Source of the DNA: Paramacrobiotus metropolitanus
Taxonomy: Eukaryota; Tardigrada; Eutardigrada; Parachela; Macrobiotidae
DNA: 64,000 nucleotides
Direction: 5' to 3'
Assembly (NCBI RefSeq): GCF_019649055.1
Contig: NW_026570349.1
Coordinates: 124,001 to 188,000 of the forward strand
The first letter of the stretch is position 1, and each line of letters starts with the position of its first letter. Under the pieces are notes generated by a model. It saw only the letters and a list, made by a program, of their open reading frames with translations. It had not been told where the DNA came from and made no database searches. Shown here piece by piece: positions 37,021 to 63,680 of the stretch. A program made the position numbers and the translations under genes.

Positions 37021-40000
37021 GTACGGGAGAAGAAATATTCTTATTACTTTCTATGGAGCATTTACTGACGAACTTTTGGTGATAACTACTGAACTGTAGC
37101 ATATCATTGTTCATTTGATATCTTGATATTTGATAGATAGATTCGATATATTCGGGTCACATTCAGCATGTAATGCTGTAATTATCAGGACCAGAGCGTT
37201 CGACTACAAATGCTCGCAGGTCATCGGCGTCAGTTGGTGAACTAAGGTACAGTACTCTGTATACTGCTTTCATAAAAACGTAATTCCAACAGAAACCTAA
37301 TGATTGTGGTGAATGTGTGCAATAACTATGTACGAGTTAGAGTACATGCATTTATAAATATAGATTTGTTCTCTTCAACGCGCAGCAGACTAACTCTTAA
37401 TCTCTTATTCCACGATAATGTAGTAACACCAACTTCCGTTGCTAATACAGCAATGTCATCAAGTTTACAAATTAATACAATTACCTTATACACGTAAAGT
37501 AATACTGCCGTAATACAATTAAGTATTTTTTCCTCCTTGAGATCCATTTAGCTGCAGATAGTGTCATAATTGCGTGGTTTCTCTTCATTAAGCAAAAATA
37601 TTATAACGATACTGCTGCACAGAAATCCCGAATAGATGTGCCTCCAAGAATTCCGCATTTGGCAGCACCAAAAACTGTCGGAAATGGCAGTTTTGGTGTC
37701 CGCGAAAAGCGGAAACCTTGTGGTCTAACTCTAACAACAATGACGGTGCCCGTTGTGTCATGACGGTGCCCGTTGTGTAATGTACAGTAAGAAGTAGTGA
37801 TGATGAATATTAGTACCTCGTACTGTACAGAGTATAGTTGATTGTGTTTGTATTATACGAGTATTTCACTAATGATCTACTGCGCAAGTATCTTTCGGGA
37901 AACCTTTCGATTAAAATTACTTCAAAAATGTAAGTATAAAAATGCTTACGCATAAATATTATGTACACATATAAGGTGCGTACGCCTTTTTAATAATAGC
38001 AGTTTCAGTAATAGCCTACAGCATTTCTGCCATTTTTCTGTCTATATTAGACAAACCGCTTTTGTTCCAGTAATTTAGGTACTTCAGTAAGTGCTAATTG
38101 CCTTCAGATAGGTCCGTACTATGGTCTTGCATGTGCTCGTTACTCATCTGCGTTCTATCGCAATATGACTTGCACAATGTTTCAAGCGACCGGTTTTGAG
38201 GGTGCGGTAGGGTGTCATCAAACGAGAGTTATGCCAAATCGGCTTCCACCAAGGAATTAATAAGTAACAGCTTACCAACAATGTCACAGTCATGATGGGT
38301 AAGACAGATGGCAAAACCGTCTCATGCGACTTTGAACTCGAAGTAGGACCAACAATATATGTTAATTATATAGTGTGTGTTGAATCATTGTGACAACTGA
38401 AGCCCAGACAAGTAAAATGTTGAGCACATCGAGCCGGTATAAAGTCGCAACAGCTTCGAAAAGCCAAGCGCCTGCGGAACTCATATCGCATGCAAAAGAA
38501 TGGTTCGCAAAAATGTTAATGATTGTTTTCTTGATGCCGGACCATGCTGACACATGTTTTTGGCAACCGAAAGAGGAATGAATAAGCACAAAGCCTCCAT
38601 TAATACGCTTCGACTTCTTAAGTCACAAATTTCTCTGCTCAGGTGCCGGTTATTTTGCGCGGTGGTTGTGAAGTTTGCAGAGCGCCATTTTGAAAGAATT
38701 TCGCAGAGTATGTATAGGTTTACAGATTGTTTGTGAGCAAGAATGAAAGTAGTTTTGTAAGCAAGTTTTAAACTGTTTGGCGTCTGCACAGCAGACTATA
38801 AACTATGGAGCGGTGACACGAGCGCGTTGATCCTTACCCGGCTTACCGGCAGAAAACGGTAAACCACGATGTCCCGTTGCTGTAGACAGCCGAGGTTCAG
38901 CAAATGCGCAGCTCCACGGGAAGCATTGAACAAACAGTTCAATCCCGGTGAAACTTTTGCCAAGGGCTGGACGACGTGCCATGACGTGGCGGGGCGCCAC
39001 AATACAACAGAAGCTGAACTTCTATTGGCTACTCTCTGCTCTAGCATATAATGCGCTAGCAGTCTGTAGGGAGGCAAGCAGCAAACAAACAAAATGCCCC
39101 ATCGCTACCCATGCTCCAAAGAGACGCAGGATAGAAACTGGCTATCATAACTGCAATTGCACAGGGATTTTACCTGACCGGCGACGTATGGTCCGCCCGG
39201 TTCCCGTCGGACGGGCACACGAATGTTAAGGGGAATGCTCATTGCCCAGTGTTAGACTGGGTCTGTCATGATGCCGCACACGATGAATGGAGATTCAAAT
39301 GGGATGCGATGCGGTCGCAGTCAAAAATCAGTATCCAACTGGTCGGCATTGATGTCCTGGAGATAACGAAAAGTCCGGTGGAAGAAATGACAAGCAGAAA
39401 ATTTTAGCCAAATTAGAGACGTCGAATTTTTGTCAGCACCCGCTTTGGTTAGTTGTACCGTAGAAGTCGAGTATCTGATATACCGATGCTACTTTCAGTG
39501 CGAGTACTTCTGTAACTTAATAGGTAGAAGTATTCATTTGAACTTCAGCAATAGCGGCGACCGGAACTGCATTCTTAGGATACCATAAATGCAATATCCA
39601 TATTCTTCATGAAAATGGACACCATCACGGAATTCGGTGGAAAAAAAATTACAGTAGATAAGTAAATTCCAGATTTCTGTCGGTTTAGCGAGCCAACGAT
39701 ACCGTAAAGTAGCTGCACTCTTGGAATATTTCTATGCAGCACCGGTGGCACTTACCTAAAATTCTAAATGTAGTACGTACTTCGCACCTATAAAGCCGAA
39801 AGGATTACTTATTATTATCATAATACAATTTATTTTTAAAACGAAATTATAATATTATCAAAATGCGATTTATTATTGGAACGGAATCATCGGCCCATTG
39901 GGGAAGGTATTGCCATATTTTTCTGTAGAAATCGGCGATGAAACCCGGCTGCTCCGCACATACACCATTATTATTATTATTTTTATTATTATTATTATTA

Positions 40001-40130
40001 TTGCAACTACAGTATCCAAACTCCATTACGGAGACTTAATATCCTTACAATTAGGTGAAAACCTTTGGGCTTTTAGGCTATTTTACTTTTTTTTGGTTTG
40101 ATTGCATGAGATAATAGTTACCCACCTACG
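37021..40130. other. Gene-poor region
   Basis: This region contains a hairpin-forming sequence near 37664-37710 (CACCAAAA...TTTTGGTG arms) and a 20-base direct repeat, GACGGTGCCCGTTGTGT, at 37743 and 37763. An ATT microsatellite lies at 39966-40003. No gene was recognised on either strand. Confidence 0.4.
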
Positions 40131-40210
40131 AGTAGGAATCGAACCCAGGACATACAATCTTAAAGGGGATATCACGGGGATATCACGGGTTAGGATGCAA
40201 GCGTCTGAAG
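40125..40210 (-). repeat. tRNA-like (SINE-type) B box remnant
   Basis: On the minus strand, CTGGGTTCGATTCCTACTCG at about 40137-40160 matches a tRNA T-arm / Pol III B box (GGTTCGANTCC). A full cloverleaf could not be drawn, and the A-box side (TAACCCGTGATATC) is poor. A tRNA-derived SINE end or decayed tRNA is more likely than a working tRNA gene. Confidence 0.35.
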
Positions 40211-40539
40211 GCGAAAATTTCCCGTCATAATGAAATCAGAGATGTGATTCATCGCGCCTGTGGGTCAGCCAGTATCCCTTCAGTTCTCGAGCCACCAGGC
40301 CTTTACCGCGATACCCAGAAAAGACCGGATGGCATGACCTCAGTTCCCTTCAGCCAAGGAAAATCCTGGGTGTGGGATGTCACCTGCACGGATACCAAGG
40401 CCACCAGCTACATCGCCAAAACATCCCAGGAAGCCGGCGCTGCCGCCACCATGGCGGAGGCGAAGAAAAACCATAAGCACGGATATTTACGCGATAATTT
40501 TAATTTCTCTGCTTTGGTTTTTGAAACAATGGGTGTGTG

Positions 40540-40548
40540 GGGTAAAGA
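40540..40548 (+). other. Left target-site duplication GGGTAAAGA
   Basis: These nine bases are identical to 44541-44549 and flank the KDZ-type element. Removing the element and one copy rejoins the retroelement reading frame. Confidence 0.85.
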
Positions 40549-40639
40549 GAGAGTATCGCCGAGTTAGGGTGTTTTTCTAAAGAGTTCCCTGTACTCCCAC
40601 GAAACGCCGAAACAGTTATTTCAAAGAAAATAAAAGCCA

Positions 40640-41135
40640 GAAAACCAGAACTAAGCACTTAGAAACGCAATGAAACTAGTCGAAACTCGTCGAAACGTAC
40701 TGAAACTAGATGAAAACCCGATGAAACCCGTCGAAACCCGATGAAACCTGATGAAACCTGTTGAAACTTGCTGAAATGTGATGAAACTAACTGAAACGTG
40801 ATGAAACTCGTTGAAACTAACTGAAACGCGAAGAAACGTGATGAAACCCGTTGAAACTTGCTGAAATGTGATGAAACTAACTGAAACGTGATGAAACTCA
40901 TTGAAACTAACTGAAACGCGATGAAACGTGATGAAACTCGTTGAAACTAGCTGAAACGCGATGAAACGTGATGAAACCCGTTGAAACTTGCTGAAATGTG
41001 ATGAAACTAACTGAAACGTGATGAAACTCATTGAAACTTGCTGAAATGCGATGAAACTAACTAAAACGCGTTGAAACGTGTTGAAACCAAATCAAGCTCG
41101 TTGAAACGTCATGAAACGCGATAAAAAAACATTAA
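40640..41135. repeat. 10-bp phased GAAAC minisatellite (left subterminal array)
   Basis: GAAAC recurs almost every 10 bases for about 500 bp (units like GATGAAACGT, TTGAAACTNG). Copies of a longer ~80-base pattern are visible within it. The apparent minus-strand ORFs here are translations of the repeat. A-tracts at helical pitch should bend the DNA. Confidence 0.9.
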
Positions 41136-41348
41136 AACGCGAGGGATTTTTATGGGAGTTTGTTTAGAAATTTTTTTGCAGAACTTCTGGCTAATACACA
41201 GAATAACACAGTGCACTAAGCAGTGGCATACATTCGGAATGATTCTAAATTCGAGCCCAATTTGTACTTGTGTCACTAGCAAAAACATTCACAAAGTTAT
41301 AACACCTTATAATACAGAACATTATAAAAGTAGGCTGAGTCCACAGAA

Positions 41349-42600
41349 TCATCTTTTTTCCAGGTACCGATTGCGGCGCTGCACGATGCGATGGAGAAAA
41401 AATATCTGATGATACTTAGGCATTTGAAACAATGCATACTGAAAGGCACCAAGCCAACTAAAGGTCTGTTCGCATGCCTGGGTGTTGCTTGTCTCTAGAT
41501 TAGGATGGATTTGTTTGATGTGTTCCGGATTGTACTTAGTGTGGCAATCTCCGCTCTTGTGATTGGACAAATGAAACCCGTCAATCACTTTTGTCATTCC
41601 ATTAATCCAAAGGCTGTTGTATGGGTACGGCAGCGGGAGCAATACTTTGGTTGCCCGAATTTTGTCCAGATTGCACATGTTATCGTATGCGATGAAAATT
41701 TCTCCCCACTTCTCCACTGGAACACCCTGTAGCACTAAGTACATCCATGCGATAAGGATCAGAAACACTTGCGAGGGAGACTCTGACCTAAAAAATTACA
41801 GTTTAATGATACTGATACGATACGAAAAATTCTTTAGGAATTGTAAGTTTACCCATATATGGGAGCGAAACTTTCGACATGGCCACCTGCTCGCACGATA
41901 AAAAGATATCCCCGCGACCTATCAATTTTTGTTTTTGTTTCTCCGAGTTGTTTGTAACAAGGCAAAGTGGATGCTTCGGAGTTCGAAGGTAATTCGATTC
42001 CCTTTGCTGCAGAAGTCTGATGTGCGGCTTGAAAAAGTATCTGCATACCTAAATCATAATTATTTATAGGCATATAATTATTTCAAAAAATTAGTTATTG
42101 CACTACTATCACAAAAACCTGCGTTCTGTTATATTAACCTGGTATCTCTGAACGAAGATCATTGCGCGAAGAACCAGTGGGATTTATTCCTAGTGATTCT
42201 GCAATCACTGCATGCTTTGGGCAGAACTTGCTGCCCTTTGCTCTAATCGGTTCCTCGGTACAGATGCTAGGGAAGTTCACTAGAGGAATGTCGCTAATGT
42301 GGTTCTGAAAACAATTTTTATTCAAAAATGATGACACAAATGCTCCAACAAATTTACAGGGTAAACTGTACCTGTACGATAAACGAGCAGTGCTTAAAAT
42401 GAGCCTTCCAGATACCATCGCAAACGTAAAGTACTCCACACCCTCGTTTCTTGCAAACTGGGTTGCAGGAATGAGGGTACTGTAGTGGCTCGCACATCTT
42501 GTACCACAGAGTTGGTGTACGGGAAAAATGTGCATCCAATATACACACTCTAACCGGGCAAAATGCACGCCTACGAAATAATGCTTGATTTGACTTCAAG
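41349..42600 (-). CDS. KDZ-family transposase, core region
   Basis: Minus-strand exons about 42372-42600 (5' limit uncertain), 42139-42304, 41853-42048 and 41349-41787 join in phase. The first has a Cys-rich segment then VCDGIWKAHFKHC, and the second has PLVNFPSICTEEP and FCPKH. The third has the IDRSRG segment, and the last has ESPSQVFL, AYDNMCNLDK, VIDGFHLSNH, CHTKYNP and NTQACEQTFSWL, ending RRNRYLEKR. This order matches eukaryotic KDZ transposases, an RNase-H-fold family that cuts and pastes DNA. The acidic residues in AYD, VID and CEQ are candidate catalytic positions. An N-terminal exon may lie in 42.9-43.5 kb and was not resolved. Confidence 0.7.
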
Positions 42601-43035
42601 ATGAACTCTCCTTCTGAATCTGTCCAGAATCAAACATTTTCTTTAAAATTGTAATTCACCTTAGAAAAGAAGCTCTGTATCTGAGAACTCGAATTGTTCT
42701 GTAGCTGTAGAATGTTGACGCTGATTGCTGAACGTACCCCTCACTCTGCAGGGGCACCCCAAAAACCACAACAAATCAGTGTTTGAATTCGAGCTGACAG
42801 CAAAGATTTAAGTTAATGGCTGCTTTTGAGCATAAATTTAATTAATAATTATTAGAGCTCTAATTTTTTTAATATTCAAGAAGGTTCTCCAGACCAGAAG
42901 TTGAGAAACATCAGAAATTTATCAATGCACGCCAACTGGGAATCGTGCGTTTTGCCCGGTTAGAGTGTGTATATTGGATGCACATTTTTCCCGTACACCA
43001 ACTCTGTGGTACAAGATGTGCGAGCCACTACAGTA
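42478..43035. repeat. 92-bp inverted duplication inside the KDZ element
   Basis: Positions 42478-42569 and 42944-43035 are reverse complements with one difference in 92 bases. The left copy is transposase coding sequence. The right copy is in opposite orientation, 374 bases away, where it cannot code the same peptide in the gene's direction. Confidence 0.9.
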
Positions 43036-43594
43036 TATCGTCTGACAGCGGATAGAATCCAAATACGGTAGAATGGAATCCAAGTCAGTGTCATTCGGAA
43101 ATCCAGCTTCCGGACACTGTGTTATGCAGCGTTCCCTTAATTCCTCTTCGATCTCATGCCGAAAACATTTGGAAAACATCAGTGCAACGATGGACATGTT
43201 CGCAGGTAGCATGAACGAAACGGAAGCTGCGGAGCGAGCTACCGGGGATCTCGTTACCACGTTGTGTGATCCACCAGGAAGCAGTTCGCAGTTTGTTCCA
43301 GGGGTTTCCAGCAGTCCACTTAAAAAAAATGACGGTATGTTGCAACTTCAAAAGTGTGTATCCCTTGCAAGCATATTTCAACGTGAAACCTGCAAATTTT
43401 ATAGGCACCAGTTCCGCGATGCCAAACCCGAAACGACTAAAACTGTGTGAAGGTAAATCAAGCATCACCTGTTCTTTTTACTTGCATATATCTTTTCATT
43501 TCAGGTAACAAAACCCCCGTTAGGATGTCGTTTTCCGCTTCTTTTCAATCTACGGGTAATCAATCTGCTTTATACATACTTGGAGGAAAGGTTA

Positions 43595-43888
43595 ATGACG
43601 ACTAAAGTTCAAGTGAGCTTATCTGTGTGGTTTTTAGACGATAATGAACGAACTGTGGCAAAGTTTTCAACGCCGGCATGTAAGCCCACACCACTATCGG
43701 ATGCAGAATTACCCAGAATCTGTGCTAACTGTGCTGTCAAGTTAGCTGAGGGCGAACGGGGTGCCAAATGGATTCAGTGCAGCGTCTGCAGTCTCGATGT
43801 ATGCAGCACTTGTGGAAAAATACCAAAGCGGGTTGCTGTTCAAAAAACCTGGAAATGCAACTTCTGTCGTAATTTAAAAAAACTTTAA
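43595..43888 (+). CDS. PHD-like zinc-finger ORF of the KDZ element
   Basis: This 97-codon ORF ends in a Cys cluster: ICANC, then KWIQCSVCSLDVCSTC, then WKCNFC. The spacing and the W-x-QC core recall PHD or related treble-clef fingers that bind chromatin or DNA. It lies inside the transposon, opposite in strand to the transposase, between it and the right terminal array. The first ATG (43595) is used; an upstream exon is possible. Its role in the element is unknown. Confidence 0.5.
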   Translation: MTTKVQVSLSVWFLDDNERTVAKFSTPACKPTPLSDAELPRICANCAVKLAEGERGAKWIQCSVCSLDVCSTCGKIPKRVAVQKTWKCNFCRNLKKL

Positions 43889-44208
43889 AATTGTCCACGT
43901 GTGGCGATATTTAGTTGGCGAAGTAACGTTGCTGTTACAGCTTGATTATAACATCACTAGATGTACATGTGTGTATTATATGTGTGTATTAACGTCACTT
44001 AAATCTTTTAAGGTTTTAAATGTAACGATTTTGGTATATCCGCTTGAGCTTTTAATGTTCCGAATAAGCGTGCATTCTGCTTCGTGTTAGTTGCAAGAAA
44101 TAATTTCGTTTTGCAAAGTTTCGCAAATGATGAATCGACATAAAGGTCACAAGGTAGTTACAGCGCGTGTAAGCATAATTAACTGCAGTTTGGTTCGGCA
44201 GTGAGTCG

Positions 44209-44480
44209 CAGGGGGTTTCAACGCGTTTCAGTGTGTTTCAGTGGTTTGCAGTAGGTTCCACGCGTTTCAGTGTGTTTCAGCGGGTCGCAGTAGGTTTCTA
44301 CGCGTTTCAGCGGGTCGAAGTGGGTTTCAGCAAGTTTCATTTAGTTTCACTCGGTTTCACTAAGCTTTAGCGGGTTTCAGTTTTTTCTCACAAGTTTCAG
44401 CGCAATAACCTATTCATACTTTATAGCCTTTAAGAAACTTTACAGCTGAAACCGTTATTAGTGCCGTTGAAACGCGTTTC
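44209..44480. repeat. GTTTC minisatellite (right subterminal array)
   Basis: GTTTCA/GTTTCC recurs at roughly 10-base intervals, the reverse complement of the left GAAAC array. It is shorter and more degenerate than the left array and ends just inside the right terminal repeat. Confidence 0.85.
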
Positions 44481-44540
44481 AACAGAGCAGCTGTTGAAAC
44501 ATACTGATGAAACCAAAACACCCTAACTTGGCGATACTAT

Positions 44541-44549
44541 GGGTAAAGA
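44541..44549 (+). other. Right target-site duplication GGGTAAAGA
   Basis: This is identical to 40540-40548. It is followed by the continuation of the interrupted retroelement frame. Confidence 0.85.
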
Positions 44550-44730
44550 ATCGAAATGTAAGATGTCTACACTCGGTAAGATGCTTTTTGAGAGGACACA
44601 GGAGAAACGGTCCACTCAGTTTCTGAAGCAGAGAATCAGTGTTGCTTTAATGCGAGGTAACGCTGCTTGTGTTCAGGAAACGTTTTGTATCGGTAAGAGA
44701 CTGGACGAAGTGTATTATGTGTTGAAATGA

Positions 44731-45293
44731 TGAACTGCGTAATTTGCTTTTAACCTACAGTATGTTAATGTGAATAACCCAATTAAAAACTTTCAATCTT
44801 AAAGCCAGACGTACTACCACCAGGCTATTAGCAATTAACATTAAATATTTGATTATTATTATTATTATTATTTGATCATTATACGTAACATAAAGCATTT
44901 ATAACCGAATAGATTTGCATATCAAGCTGGTTTAAAATACGTTACTGACACTGAAAACTCCCAAAAATACCGCGACATGAACAACAATGAAACGCGATTA
45001 TTATCGCCCTGTTTTGATGTGCGATAAACAGATAAAATCCTTGTCGACATCACTTTCAGTGGAATTTACTTGAACTAGCAAGCATGCCACTCTTAAATGC
45101 AAGCAGTACCAATCGTGTTGAACTGAATGGTTCTTTACATTCAACAGTAGGTACGATACCGGTAAATAAACTAGCAGCTGCCTTTTTCGATTTCATGTAC
45201 CACTGCCATTTTTTTGTGGCAGCAGCAGCACTGTCTACTACCAGCAGTTTACTAGGAGTGATATGTAGTATGTACCATCATAGAAACGTCAAA
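44731..45293. other. Intergenic, upstream of an LRR gene
   Basis: This stretch contains an ATT microsatellite (44855-44880) and presumably the promoter of the LRR gene. An in-frame extension upstream of 45294 to 45084 exists, but it would bury the signal peptide. Confidence 0.4.
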
Positions 45294-46445
45294 ATGCTTT
45301 CATCTGCTTCCAACTTTGTCGGCTTGTTTCTGTTCCTTTGTTTTGTCGTGGTTCCTGAAATTACCGGCGAAGTTTGCAGGGAAACCCCAAATGATTTTTC
45401 TTGCCTTTGTGCTTCAACCACGCCCATTGACTTCCCGCGTTCGTATGATGTAAATAAAATTCCCTCTACGACCATGCGCTTAGTCCTTGGTTCACGTCAA
45501 GAACTTCCTGATCAGCGGCCCATTAACCGTTCCCTTCTGGTGTACTGCAATCTGCTGCGAAAGGACCACACAAGCATTCCCGATAGAGGACATTTAAGAC
45601 ACGTGCACTTACACAACTTTATTGGAGAAGGCGGTCGGCGGCCACCCTTCAAGCAGTTTTTGCGGTTTGTGCAGTATCGCATCGAGACACTGCGGATCGG
45701 ACACTCCAAGATCGGGCATTTAGATGCTGATTTTCTCCATGGTTTCCCGGAACTAAAGCAGCTAGATTTGTCGGAGAACGACATTTATGATATATCGATC
45801 GATGCGTTTCAAGAATTTCAGGGATATCCCGCATCCAGAGCAGAAATGTTCGATAATGTTCTGAACCTGGCAGGGAACGCTCTTGAAGAACTTAACTGGC
45901 GCGCTTTTGAACCGCTGTCATATTGGGTGGTAAGCATACCCGGTCGTTTGTTTTTCAGCAGTCGCATACTGTGCATACACTGAAAATGAATATCGTGCTT
46001 TCAGAAAAGTTTAGAACTCGGCCAACAAAATCCAAAACTACGCACAATACACATGAGTGGGGCTCCGTTCGAGTTTGGGTTTCTGTCCGACCTTGACATG
46101 AAAAATAATGATTTGACCTTTATACCTGATGACGTCCTACGCTCCCTGAAAACGGTGGAATCATTTGACCTTCAGGGCAGTATGCTCTGTGCTGTCGATG
46201 ATTGTTCCTGCTGCGAAACTCAGCCTTTTCTACAGATGATTTTAAGTAAAACCACTGTCAGGACGGGTGGCTGGGGGACGCCTTCCTCCAGACGGGGAGC
46301 TTTCAGCTGCGGTTCCCAGAATTTCTACGACTACGGTCAGCAGCGGTCAGAACAGCAGATGCCCGCTTGTAAGTTAGCAATTGCTGCTACAGTAAAACCT
46401 GATAAAGAAATATGTACACCAACGTTCAGCCGATCGCACATTTAA
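45294..46445 (+). CDS. Secreted leucine-rich-repeat protein
   Basis: The exons are 45294-45929 and 46005-46445, joined in phase 0 and giving 358 residues. The ATG at 45294 is chosen because it puts a signal peptide (FVGLFLFLCFVVVP) at the N-terminus; the frame is open to an ATG at 45084. A Cys-containing N-cap (VCRETPNDFSCLC) is followed by LRRs (IETLRIGHSKIGHLDADFL, LKQLDLSENDIYDI, LNLAGNALEEL, DLDMKNNDLTFI) and an LRRCT-like cluster (LCAVDDCSCC). No transmembrane helix or GPI signal is evident, so secretion is inferred. Ligand unknown. It is not a close copy of the LRR gene at 23.5-28.0 kb. An AATAAA lies at 46699. Confidence 0.75.
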
Positions 46446-58432: not shown

Positions 58433-59918
58433 TTATGCTATCTTGTACCATCGACCGAACCCCACAGTGGAAAAATCAGTGCGAGGATGACCTTTGTAGC
58501 CTACGCTGGTAAAACCCCCACTACTCCCAGCCAGATGGTAGAGGGCGTTAAGCGTCACCTGACCCCTCCCAGAGGCGCTGACAAAGCCGTCCTGCGCGAG
58601 TAATTGTTCGGCATCCAGCTGACCCACACCGGCCAGGTCAAGCGTGAGGGACCGCGTTCGTTCCGCCAGGAAGATCCGCCCGGTGCCGGATAAGCTGGCG
58701 CGCACGTAAACCGCTTGCAGAGCCGGTAGACGAATGCTCCCGGCGCCGGAAAGAAGTACCTGGATTCTGTTAGCGGATGCGACGGGGATGGTGATGGAGC
58801 CCGCTCCGGAGATGGCCAGCTGCAGGACGGGTGTGGTGACCGGGGAGGCGGGCTCGACGGTGACGGATCCGTAGTGCGGGATGCTGATGGCGCGGAGGTT
58901 TCGTGTGGTTAGGTGAATGTGGATGTCCGGGAGACGGGCAGGAGGACTGAAAACGTTGAAAGATTGACTTCTAAATTTCAAAAGTTTCGCACTTTTAAAA
59001 TGAACTTTACTGGGAAAATATACTTTTAGGAAATTTGAACACGCAAGGTGTCGGTTACCGACAGTAAAACAGTACAATAACATACTGTACTATCAGTAGT
59101 CTCGGCTCACGATGTCCAGATTTTTTAAAGCCGGAGCGCGAGTTCTTACTTTCGCGGCTGTCGGAGTCAGCCGCCCGTGTTAACTACTTCGCGTTCACGT
59201 AATTCATATTCAGTGAATGCTATGAAAATGCAGACAGCGTGCGACCGATGCACTGTAAAAAATCCGGATACCATGAGCCGAGAGTACAGTACGTAAAACT
59301 ATACCGGTTAACGTGTTCGATTAATAAAAAAGACCCAAGTATACCGTAGTTTCTCAATCGGTCCTTAAACGGAAAAATTAAAATTAATTCTGAACTGGAA
59401 CTGAAAAATTCTAAATTGGATTCTAATTCTAAATTGGAAAAACCTTATCGAATCATAATCGAATCCAATACGCAACTAAAACACCAAGCCAAATCGCTGA
59501 CACACAAGCAATAATAACACGAAATGCACTACTGCTGAAGTTTAAATTCTTTAAACTTGTATACCTACTTGTAGCCCGTCATTATTCCAAAATTACGTTA
59601 ATTAAGCTCACCAGGGCGCTGATCTCGAACCATAAGCGATGGTTCGAATGGGCCTGGGCATCTCGTCAAAATCGTATCTTGTCTCCACTGGTTTTTTTGT
59701 ATTGTTGACCCCTTGGCATGACGACCAATAATCATCGCCGATAACCAGCTGATCCCCGGTAACCACTGCACGAATCCCTTGCACATAGGACGCGTTCTCG
59801 GGCGGCGCGGTGATGACGATTCGCTCCCGGCCCTCAGGATCTACGCGCATAGTTACCGGAAACGGCGCCCACAACTCCAGGGCGCTGAAGGGCGGAAGTG
59901 CTCGCTGGTCAGCAGTAC
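58433..59918 (-). CDS. GIN/DUF2807-type beta-helix protein, copy B (5' exon missing)
   Basis: The exons are 59612-59918 and 58433-58946, joined through a phase-2 GTGAGC donor. The second exon repeats a glycine-rich rung motif: ISGAGSI, LSGAGSI, LSGTGRI, LAGVGQL, ASGRGQV, then SVGYKGHPRTDFSTVGFGR and a stop. The first exon carries FPVTMRVDPEGRERIVI and GDQLVI. This fits the GIN/DUF2807 fold (putative adhesin head), known to me mainly from bacteria, especially Bacteroidetes. It has the same exon structure and phases as the paralogue at 61.7-63.5 kb. The 5' exon was not identified (a weak candidate ends at 60452), so signal peptide and start are unknown. Confidence 0.7.
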
Positions 59919-61703: not shown

Positions 61704-63680
61704 CTATGAAATCTGGTACACTCGACCGAACCCACTGTTAGAAATATCGACCCGGGGATGACCTTTATATCCCACACTTCCCATACCGCTAACGCTCCCA
61801 CTAAGACTATACAGGGCGTTGATGATGGCTCTACCAATTCCGGATGCACTGACGTAGCCGTTCCCCGCCAGGAGGTTGCCGGCATCCAGCTGACCGACGC
61901 CCGAGAGGTCGACATTCAGTTGCCGGGTCTGTCCGGCCAGGATAATTCGTCCGGTTCCCGACAAGCTGGTGCCCACGAAATCCGCTTGCACAGCCGGCAG
62001 ACGGATGCTCCCAGCGCCCGAGAGAGCCACCTGGATACCATTAGCGAAAGCGGTGGGGATTGTGATAGAGCCGGCCCCCGAGACGGACAGCTGTAGGTCG
62101 GGGGTACTGACCGGAGAGCTCGGCTCGACAGTCACGGATCCGTAGCTCGGTATGCTGATGGCGCGGATGTGCCGGGTGGTCACGTGAATGCGGACGTCCG
62201 GCAAAGGATGCGGCTGATTGTGACTGCAAATGTCTCATACGTCTTGTATACGTTTTACCGGGCTCAAAAATACATGTAGTATGGAAACCAGGTTTAAATC
62301 CATTAATCAAGCCACTGATTTTGCCTCATTACGTATTGACTGACATGTAATAAAACCCGTTAACTGCACGAGTAATTGGAAGAAAACGAAACTGGAATGC
62401 TGCGAATGTACGGATACTGTACGATTTTTCAGAACAACCGATCATTTGCCCAATGCGTATATTAACACTTGACCTTTCACATGTACCGATTTCCTGGTGG
62501 TACAGCAATTTCGAAAACTATTAAGTTTGTTTTGCATGGTTCTCTCTTTGCATATCAATTTTACATAATTATATCCGGTAAGTGTGCAAAGTATAAAATA
62601 TACAAATTTCTCAGAGTTTTTAACAGGTATTTGTTGTCTCCTGCGTGAGATTAACACCTGCGGTTCTGGTCTAAGCGAAATGAGAACTACTATGCAAAAC
62701 TCGTATGCAAAACAATTACTTTTTGAAATTAGGAAACTGGATACGTTTGCGTTATTAGAAAATTTCTCCATTTTAAAAATGTACAGCAAAAGTGACCATT
62801 TTGTTGAGAAAGTCGAAATATTGTGCGACATGTACAGCAACATACCGTAGACTCAGGTCATTCCAAAAAATGTTCATGGCAAACTTGCACTCACCAAATC
62901 ACTGATCCCAGACCTGTGGAACTAGCAGTAATGCTGGTAACGGACGCTTTGTTAACGGTGATTGTCACTGGTCCATGTGTAGGGCCGGCCTCGAAACATT
63001 GCATTTCATAACCGGATACAATGACCAGCTGATCACCGTTAACGAACGTTCGGATCCGCCGTATGTGGGACGCTTGTTCAGGCGGCGCGGTGATGATAAT
63101 CCGTTCTTGGCCAACAGGATCGACGCGAACGGTTACCGGGAACGGCGCTTGCAACTCCAGGGCGCCGAAGGGTGGCAGGGCGCGCTGATCAGCAATAACT
63201 GCAAAAGACAGCATGAATTTATAGATGCTGACTTTGGTTGTAGACATAATATCATACATTGTGTTAATCCCGAAAACTGTCTTCTTACTTGATAACGCGC
63301 AAATCAGGGTGTTGGATGACCATGGACATCCAACGACAAAGAGGAATACAAGATGGTCTCGTGTATGGAACATTCTGGAGATGAATAACAAGCGCCACAG
63401 GACACGATACCTGAAATTCAAAATGCGGCGTCTCAAATCGTAATCATTAAGCACAAGATGGTTTTCTAATTCTTTAAACTAATCTCACTGTGTGTAGCAT
63501 ATATATCTTACCACCGTATTTGACCACTCCCAGCACCGTGTCACAGGTATTAAAACAGCAACGTGTCCGATTGACCCTAAGGTCCGTGCCTGCCGGATCC
63601 GTTGATTTGCTGAACGATCAGTTGGCTGTCGCGCATCCGGATTGCGATGCCAACTCGCAGTGCAACTTTTGTGCCCTTCC
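61704..63680 (-). CDS. GIN/DUF2807-type beta-helix protein, copy A (5' end missing)
   Basis: The exons are about 63512-63670 (5' limit uncertain), 62895-63198 and 61704-62223, all phase-consistent. The first is Cys-rich (four cysteines within its last 40 codons) and ends VVKYG. The second begins ADQRALPPFGALELQ and has FPVTVRVDPVGQERIII, GDQLVIVSGY and PVTITVNKASVTSI. The third has the rung motifs VSGAGSI, LSGAGSI, LSGTGRI, LSGVGQL and ASGIGRA, ending SVGYKGHPRVDISNSGFGR. It is clearly homologous to copy B across both main exons, so the pair is a tandem duplication. The start codon and signal peptide probably lie further upstream or beyond 64000. Extracellular adhesive or structural role is inferred from the family only. 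Confidence 0.7.

Follow-up and report, generated by a model that had tools for sequence, protein, structure and literature searches.

The KDZ superfamily of DNA transposons includes Zisupton, whose hosts are listed in the excerpted text of PMC9297572 as fish, fungi, algae and diplogastrid nematodes, along with other elements that vary in the length of target sequence duplicated on insertion. Excerpts of PMC12730594 give 8-bp duplications for Zisupton and for Zisupton-1_PGr of the Dileera lineage, and 7-bp duplications without terminal inverted repeats for two Kyakuja families. In Cryptococcus, the duplication is 8 bp for KDZ1 and 4-8 bp for KDZ2 and KDZ3 (PMC12810828, excerpts), and for the Pristionchus copies no duplications could be found, according to excerpts of PMC9297572. 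Here we describe a KDZ-type DNA transposon from the tardigrade Paramacrobiotus metropolitanus, located in a stretch of 64,000 nucleotides (RefSeq assembly GCF_019649055.1, contig NW_026570349.1, positions 124,001 to 188,000 of the forward strand), which we call the window and in whose numbering all coordinates are given.

The unit is a real, well-bounded and previously undescribed member of the known KDZ superfamily, ordinary in kind. The explanation that we favour with considerable confidence is insertion of a cut-and-paste transposon of this superfamily, with duplication of about 8 bp of target, into a short fragment that was in place beforehand and that probably comes from a non-long terminal repeat (non-LTR) retroelement.

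With Zisupton this element shares the KDZ catalytic domain, a multi-exon transposase, inverted ends and a duplication compatible with the 8 bp reported in the excerpts of PMC12730594. It differs in its 24-bp inverted repeat, its mirrored arrays with a 10-bp phase and a divergent gene for a zinc-finger-like protein, in a comparison that stops short of the original description of Zisupton. The Cryptococcus elements KDZ1, KDZ2 and KDZ3 likewise have a KDZ domain and similar duplication lengths, but measure about 9-11 kb, have inverted repeats 139-241 bp long and include a CxC1 domain (PMC12810828, excerpts), as against 4 kb, a 24-bp inverted repeat and no CxC family match here.

Ends and genes of the element

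A first-pass annotation had placed a 3,992-bp unit with inverted ends between two copies of the 9-bp repeat GGGTAAAGA, and both copies and both ends were found. Searched on both strands, the window contains the repeat only at 40540-40548 and 44541-44549, leaving 3,992 bp between the copies (40549-44540). By count alone the pair says little, because two or more copies also appeared in 7 of 100 shuffles (mean expected count 0.43). It is the location that makes it meaningful, since only 88 of 200,000 random flank pairs drawn from the window gave a repeat of at least 9 bases lying no more than 4 nt from each inverted end. The terminal inverted repeats, at 40552-40575 (plus strand) and 44515-44538 (minus strand), are 24 nt long and complementary at 23 of 24 positions (96%), with one mismatch. 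Searching the window for further inverted ends with up to three mismatches recovered only these two, and the same pattern returned 0 stretches from viral_contigs.

When the flanks are joined at one copy of the repeat, a single open frame runs across the junction to a stop at 44730. Nesting marked by a target-site duplication, as originally proposed, is borne out by this restored frame together with the chance figure given above. The frame had also been described as that of a retroelement resuming after the second copy; it does rejoin and reach its stop, but what is restored is a short fragment and not a full retroelement reading frame. Taking the duplication to be the 8-bp GGTAAAGA (left copy 40541-40548, right copy 44542-44549, or 9 bp from 40540 and from 44541), the transposon spans 40549-44541 and measures 3,993 bp; under a 9-bp reading it ends at 44540 and measures 3,992 bp. 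Neither the element as a whole nor the copies of its duplication are assigned a strand.

The minus-strand gene (41349-42629) is, by its domain match, one for a KDZ-type transposase, with catalysis predicted. The open frame 41795-41352 (minus strand), which corresponds to the last exon of the gene, matches the Pfam family PF18758 (KDZ) with an E value of 2e-07 and 31.4 bits against a curated cut-off of 26.6, which upholds the KDZ identity assigned on first reading, and the spliced model matches with E 3.1e-07 over profile positions 74-217 of 217. In this model, four exons (42629-42372, 42304-42139, 42048-41853 and 41787-41349) join into an open frame across three introns of 67, 90 and 65 nt, all with GT-AG ends; no start codon was found for it. 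A sequence search with the spliced transposase against solved structures returned no match with an E value of 1 or below. Scans for relatives of the KDZ exon yielded one candidate stretch in viral_contigs and eight in genome_contigs, none of them confirmed, by a method (exact short peptides from a single query) that reaches close relatives only.

A second gene appears to lie on the plus strand at 43073-43888, oriented away from the transposase gene, so that the unit would carry two divergent genes, one for the KDZ transposase and one for a zinc-finger-like protein, according to the exon models. The second model comprises exons 43073-43334, 43405-43452, 43505-43555 and 43638-43888, separated by GT-AG introns of 70, 52 and 82 nt, and its open spliced frame encodes 203 amino acids. 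Its 5' end is uncertain because part of the first exon is open on the opposite strand too. The product has a C-terminal cysteine-rich stretch resembling FYVE_2, Piccolo-type and PHD zinc fingers, with all such matches below their cut-offs (best E 0.0092).

The element also contains an internal inverted repeat with 92-bp arms that lie 374 nt apart and differ at one position. Arm 1 (42478-42569, minus strand) falls within the first modelled transposase exon and arm 2 (42944-43035, plus strand) between the two modelled genes. This repeat may have been left by a rearrangement in which the transposase gene was damaged at its 5' end, it may give rise to hairpin RNA, or it may reflect faulty assembly.

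Phased subterminal arrays

Inside the inverted repeats lie two arrays of a short motif, facing each other. The left array (40662-41117, plus strand) consists of TGAAACNNNN units with a 10-bp period and points inward; the right array (44215-44399, minus strand) carries the same motif inverted, also points inward and is more degenerate. There are 34 copies of TGAAAC at the left end and 13 of GTTTCA at the right, and the distance from one copy to the next is a multiple of 10 in 32 of 33 cases at the left and in 10 of 12 at the right. For the shorter core, 34 of 41 GAAAC at the left and 10 of 15 GTTTC at the right fall in one phase. Outside the element, 5 of 26 GAAAC/GTTTC spacings of up to 60 nt are multiples of 10, in a control that used the 5-base core in either orientation and so matches the arrays only roughly. 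When 450-bp stretches were scored every 50 bases for one motif in one phase, the top counts (up to 34) all overlapped the element among the 25 best rows.

The core of the motif is far better conserved than the bases between its copies. In a fixed 10-bp register of six core and four spacer positions (40732-41121 at the left, 44260-44399 at the right), pairwise mismatch was 7% in the core and 59% in the spacer among the 39 left units, 27% and 66% among the 14 right units, and 18% and 67% when left units were compared with right ones. Outside this register fall, at the left, six GAAAC of the array (40662-40723) and two isolated ones closer to that end (40601 and 40609), and at the right, three GTTTCA within the array (44215-44235), an isolated one (44476) and five GAAAC of opposite orientation. 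We consider it likely that the arrays are binding sites for a protein, predicted from their sequence to lie on one face of the helix and to point inward at both ends.

The most likely working of the ends can be outlined on this basis. The transposase, or the zinc-finger-like product of the second gene, would bind the subterminal TGAAAC arrays, whose 10-bp period would align the sites along the same side of the helix. With many protomers assembled on either end, the short terminal inverted repeats would be drawn into proximity, and their cleavage and joining to a staggered target site would follow there. We offer only tentatively, and with more doubt than conviction, the broader proposal that this KDZ lineage recognises its ends through long, helically phased TGAAAC arrays occupied by a row of protein along one face of the DNA, and that the 92-bp repeat may in addition give rise, by read-through, to double-stranded RNA silencing the transposase.

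The hAT element Hermes offers a comparison in how such ends may work and not in membership, the transposase here being KDZ and that of Hermes hAT. Hermes makes 8-bp duplications; zinc-finger domains of its transposase bind the subterminal repeats of the left end, where the spacing is important, while no such domain binds the right end (PMC10368747, excerpts). For KDZ elements, no description of phased-array ends was found in the literature searched, a body of work that leaves the original Zisupton paper outside its scope; the excerpts of PMC12730594 contain neither 'subterminal' nor 'tandem repeat', and those of PMC12810828 do not contain 'subterminal'.

Alternative readings of the unit

The ends of the element had been regarded as fixed to the base, and here a correction is needed. 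A 9-bp duplication around a 3,992-bp element, exactly as first read, has in its favour that the repeat as read is 9 bp long, but it places the start of the inverted repeat 3 nt in from the left copy and 2 nt in from the right one, and these unequal offsets make the boundary ambiguous by one base, a G. With 8 bp, both inverted repeats begin 3 nt inside. Published KDZ duplications, moreover, are 7 or 8 bp in the excerpts of PMC12730594 and 4-8 bp in those of PMC12810828, with none of 9. We therefore prefer a duplication of 8 bp, as it renders the ends symmetric and agrees with the published values, and regard the longer one as unlikely; the ninth base would be a chance match or would also have been duplicated. 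Ends so defined had been thought rare for KDZ elements, but they are unexceptional, since the excerpts of both reports state inverted repeats and duplications for several of them, although in the present case a single window supplies them. More remote still is the reading in which the host has domesticated the KDZ-like gene and the repeats on either side have nothing to do with it. Host genes akin to KDZ proteins are known from animals, and the multi-exon structure of the hand-made model would suit such a gene. Against it stand the matching inverted ends on its flanks, the mirrored arrays and a duplication that restores an interrupted frame, and we give this reading very little credence.

Two further readings concern parts of the unit and not its nature. 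The copy may be defective, the rearrangement that made the 92-bp repeat having removed the 5' end of the transposase gene, so that the element depends on help to move or is inactive altogether. Such a defect can be compatible with insertion of a KDZ transposon as set out above, and we consider it quite possible, if somewhat short of an even chance: the repeat sits at the 5' side of a transposase model whose start was not found, and its arms are nearly identical, but the modelled introns keep their GT-AG ends, the spliced frames are open, and an unmodelled exon may lie upstream. The subterminal arrays, for their part, might be ordinary tandem repeats grown by slippage, without any role. The left array contains a 90-bp higher-order repeat of 4.3 copies, and part of its regularity therefore stems from tandem duplication; between units nine or thirteen apart the spacers mismatch less, at 37% and 41% respectively, and one spacer column is G in 29 of the 39 left units. 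At the remaining 13 of the 15 lags examined, however, spacers differ by 53-72% and the core by just 6-8%, and an identical core with the same period and inward orientation recurs at the opposite end. Tandem duplication alone would leave unexplained why, at both ends, the core is conserved and the spacers vary, and we judge slippage as the whole account improbable.

Several other observations join the 90-bp repeat in weighing against a KDZ transposon with recognition arrays. Nearer the right end, at 44434-44509, the five GAAAC of opposite orientation show no 10-bp phase. The outermost three nucleotides of the element, GAG at the left and CAT at the right on the other strand, agree at one of three positions, and the element has been seen as one copy, in this window alone. 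The front third of the KDZ domain is unmatched, as the profile match starts at position 74, and the exons of both genes were placed by hand. No Pfam CxC family was listed for the spliced transposase at E up to 10, in a search whose HMMER filters drop most matches above E 0.1; a cysteine-rich stretch was seen by eye. D71, D242 and E313 are candidate catalytic residues, picked out by eye from KDZ patterns. A single-sequence structure model of the last transposase exon, with a mean predicted local distance difference test score of 42, was too poor for use.

Older layers, neighbouring sequence and outlook

The fragment into which the KDZ transposon inserted comprises a left part with an open frame (40166-40548, plus strand), its edge placed from a possible 11-bp flanking repeat, and a right part (44550-44793, plus strand) in which the frame resumes and stops. 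It is perhaps 627 bp long, lies inside a sequence resembling a tRNA-derived short interspersed nuclear element (SINE), and probably derives from a non-LTR retroelement. That the frame belongs to a retroelement, as first supposed, remains likely, yet no match confirmed it: Pfam showed no retroelement family for either of the two pieces, and the joined frame had none in NCBIfam, whose models are prokaryotic, or among PDB chains. The frame may be the C-terminal, restriction-like endonuclease part of a non-LTR element. Pfam matches to the Sde2 ubiquitin domain and DUF6402 (E about 0.04-0.05, below cut-off) and ten weak matches to PDB chains, the best at E 0.09 (a radial spoke protein and ribosomal eL36 among them), were set aside as chance. 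The peptide scan for relatives of the joined frame, again limited in reach to close relatives, gave three candidate stretches in viral_contigs, none confirmed.

The 11-bp repeat CAATCTTAAAG, at 40155-40165 and 44794-44804 (no strand assigned), may be the duplication left by the fragment's own insertion. By chance, an 11-mer was shared in 319 of 20,000 randomly drawn pairs of this kind, a denominator that is in truth slightly smaller, as pairs less than 500 bases apart were omitted. At the left edge of the fragment (40165-40189), GGGGATATCAC is repeated 2.3 times without mismatch. The tRNA-SINE-like sequence (39965-40165 and 44794-44830, minus strand) is split by the fragment, with the 11-bp repeat at the break. 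Its joined CAATCTTAAAG flanks carry, on the minus strand, A- and B-box-like motifs recognised by eye and an (AAT)n tail, which suggests that it is the oldest layer. ARAGORN at default settings found 0 tRNA genes in the joined site, for which the 724 listed at a very loose setting were discarded, and no tRNA genes or Rfam families were found across the window. There was no second SINE-like copy in the window, where six more B-box-like sites score 14-18 against a background 95th percentile of 18. The ordered insertion history proposed at first reading is supported for its KDZ step and may extend to this third, older layer: the order would run from the SINE-like sequence through the fragment to the KDZ element, the last step being well supported and the first weakly.

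Elsewhere in the window, leucine-rich-repeat frames lie just downstream of the element at 45084-46445 (plus strand), with an LRR_8 match of E 1.3e-09 for 45084-45983 and of E 0.017, below cut-off, for 46053-46442. An open frame at 58436-59083 (minus strand) matches PF10988 (DUF2807, putative auto-transporter adhesin head domain; E 7.3e-16), and in this window, eukaryotic in character by its introns and the KDZ element, is possibly a gene acquired from bacteria. The frame at 62894-63454 (minus strand) resembles it by eye, but its sole listed match, to DUF6174, falls below the cut-off (E 0.076).

The kind of element described here is known, and apart from the architecture of its ends it is ordinary, one more nested transposon; what is unusual is the regularity with which a short motif recurs every ten bases in the arrays at its ends. 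To our knowledge, the biochemistry of KDZ transposases has received little attention. This copy is compact, its ends are nearly defined, it has two short genes and its candidate recognition motif is clear, so that one could ask directly which protein, the transposase or the zinc-finger-like one, binds TGAAAC and whether the 10-bp phasing is important.

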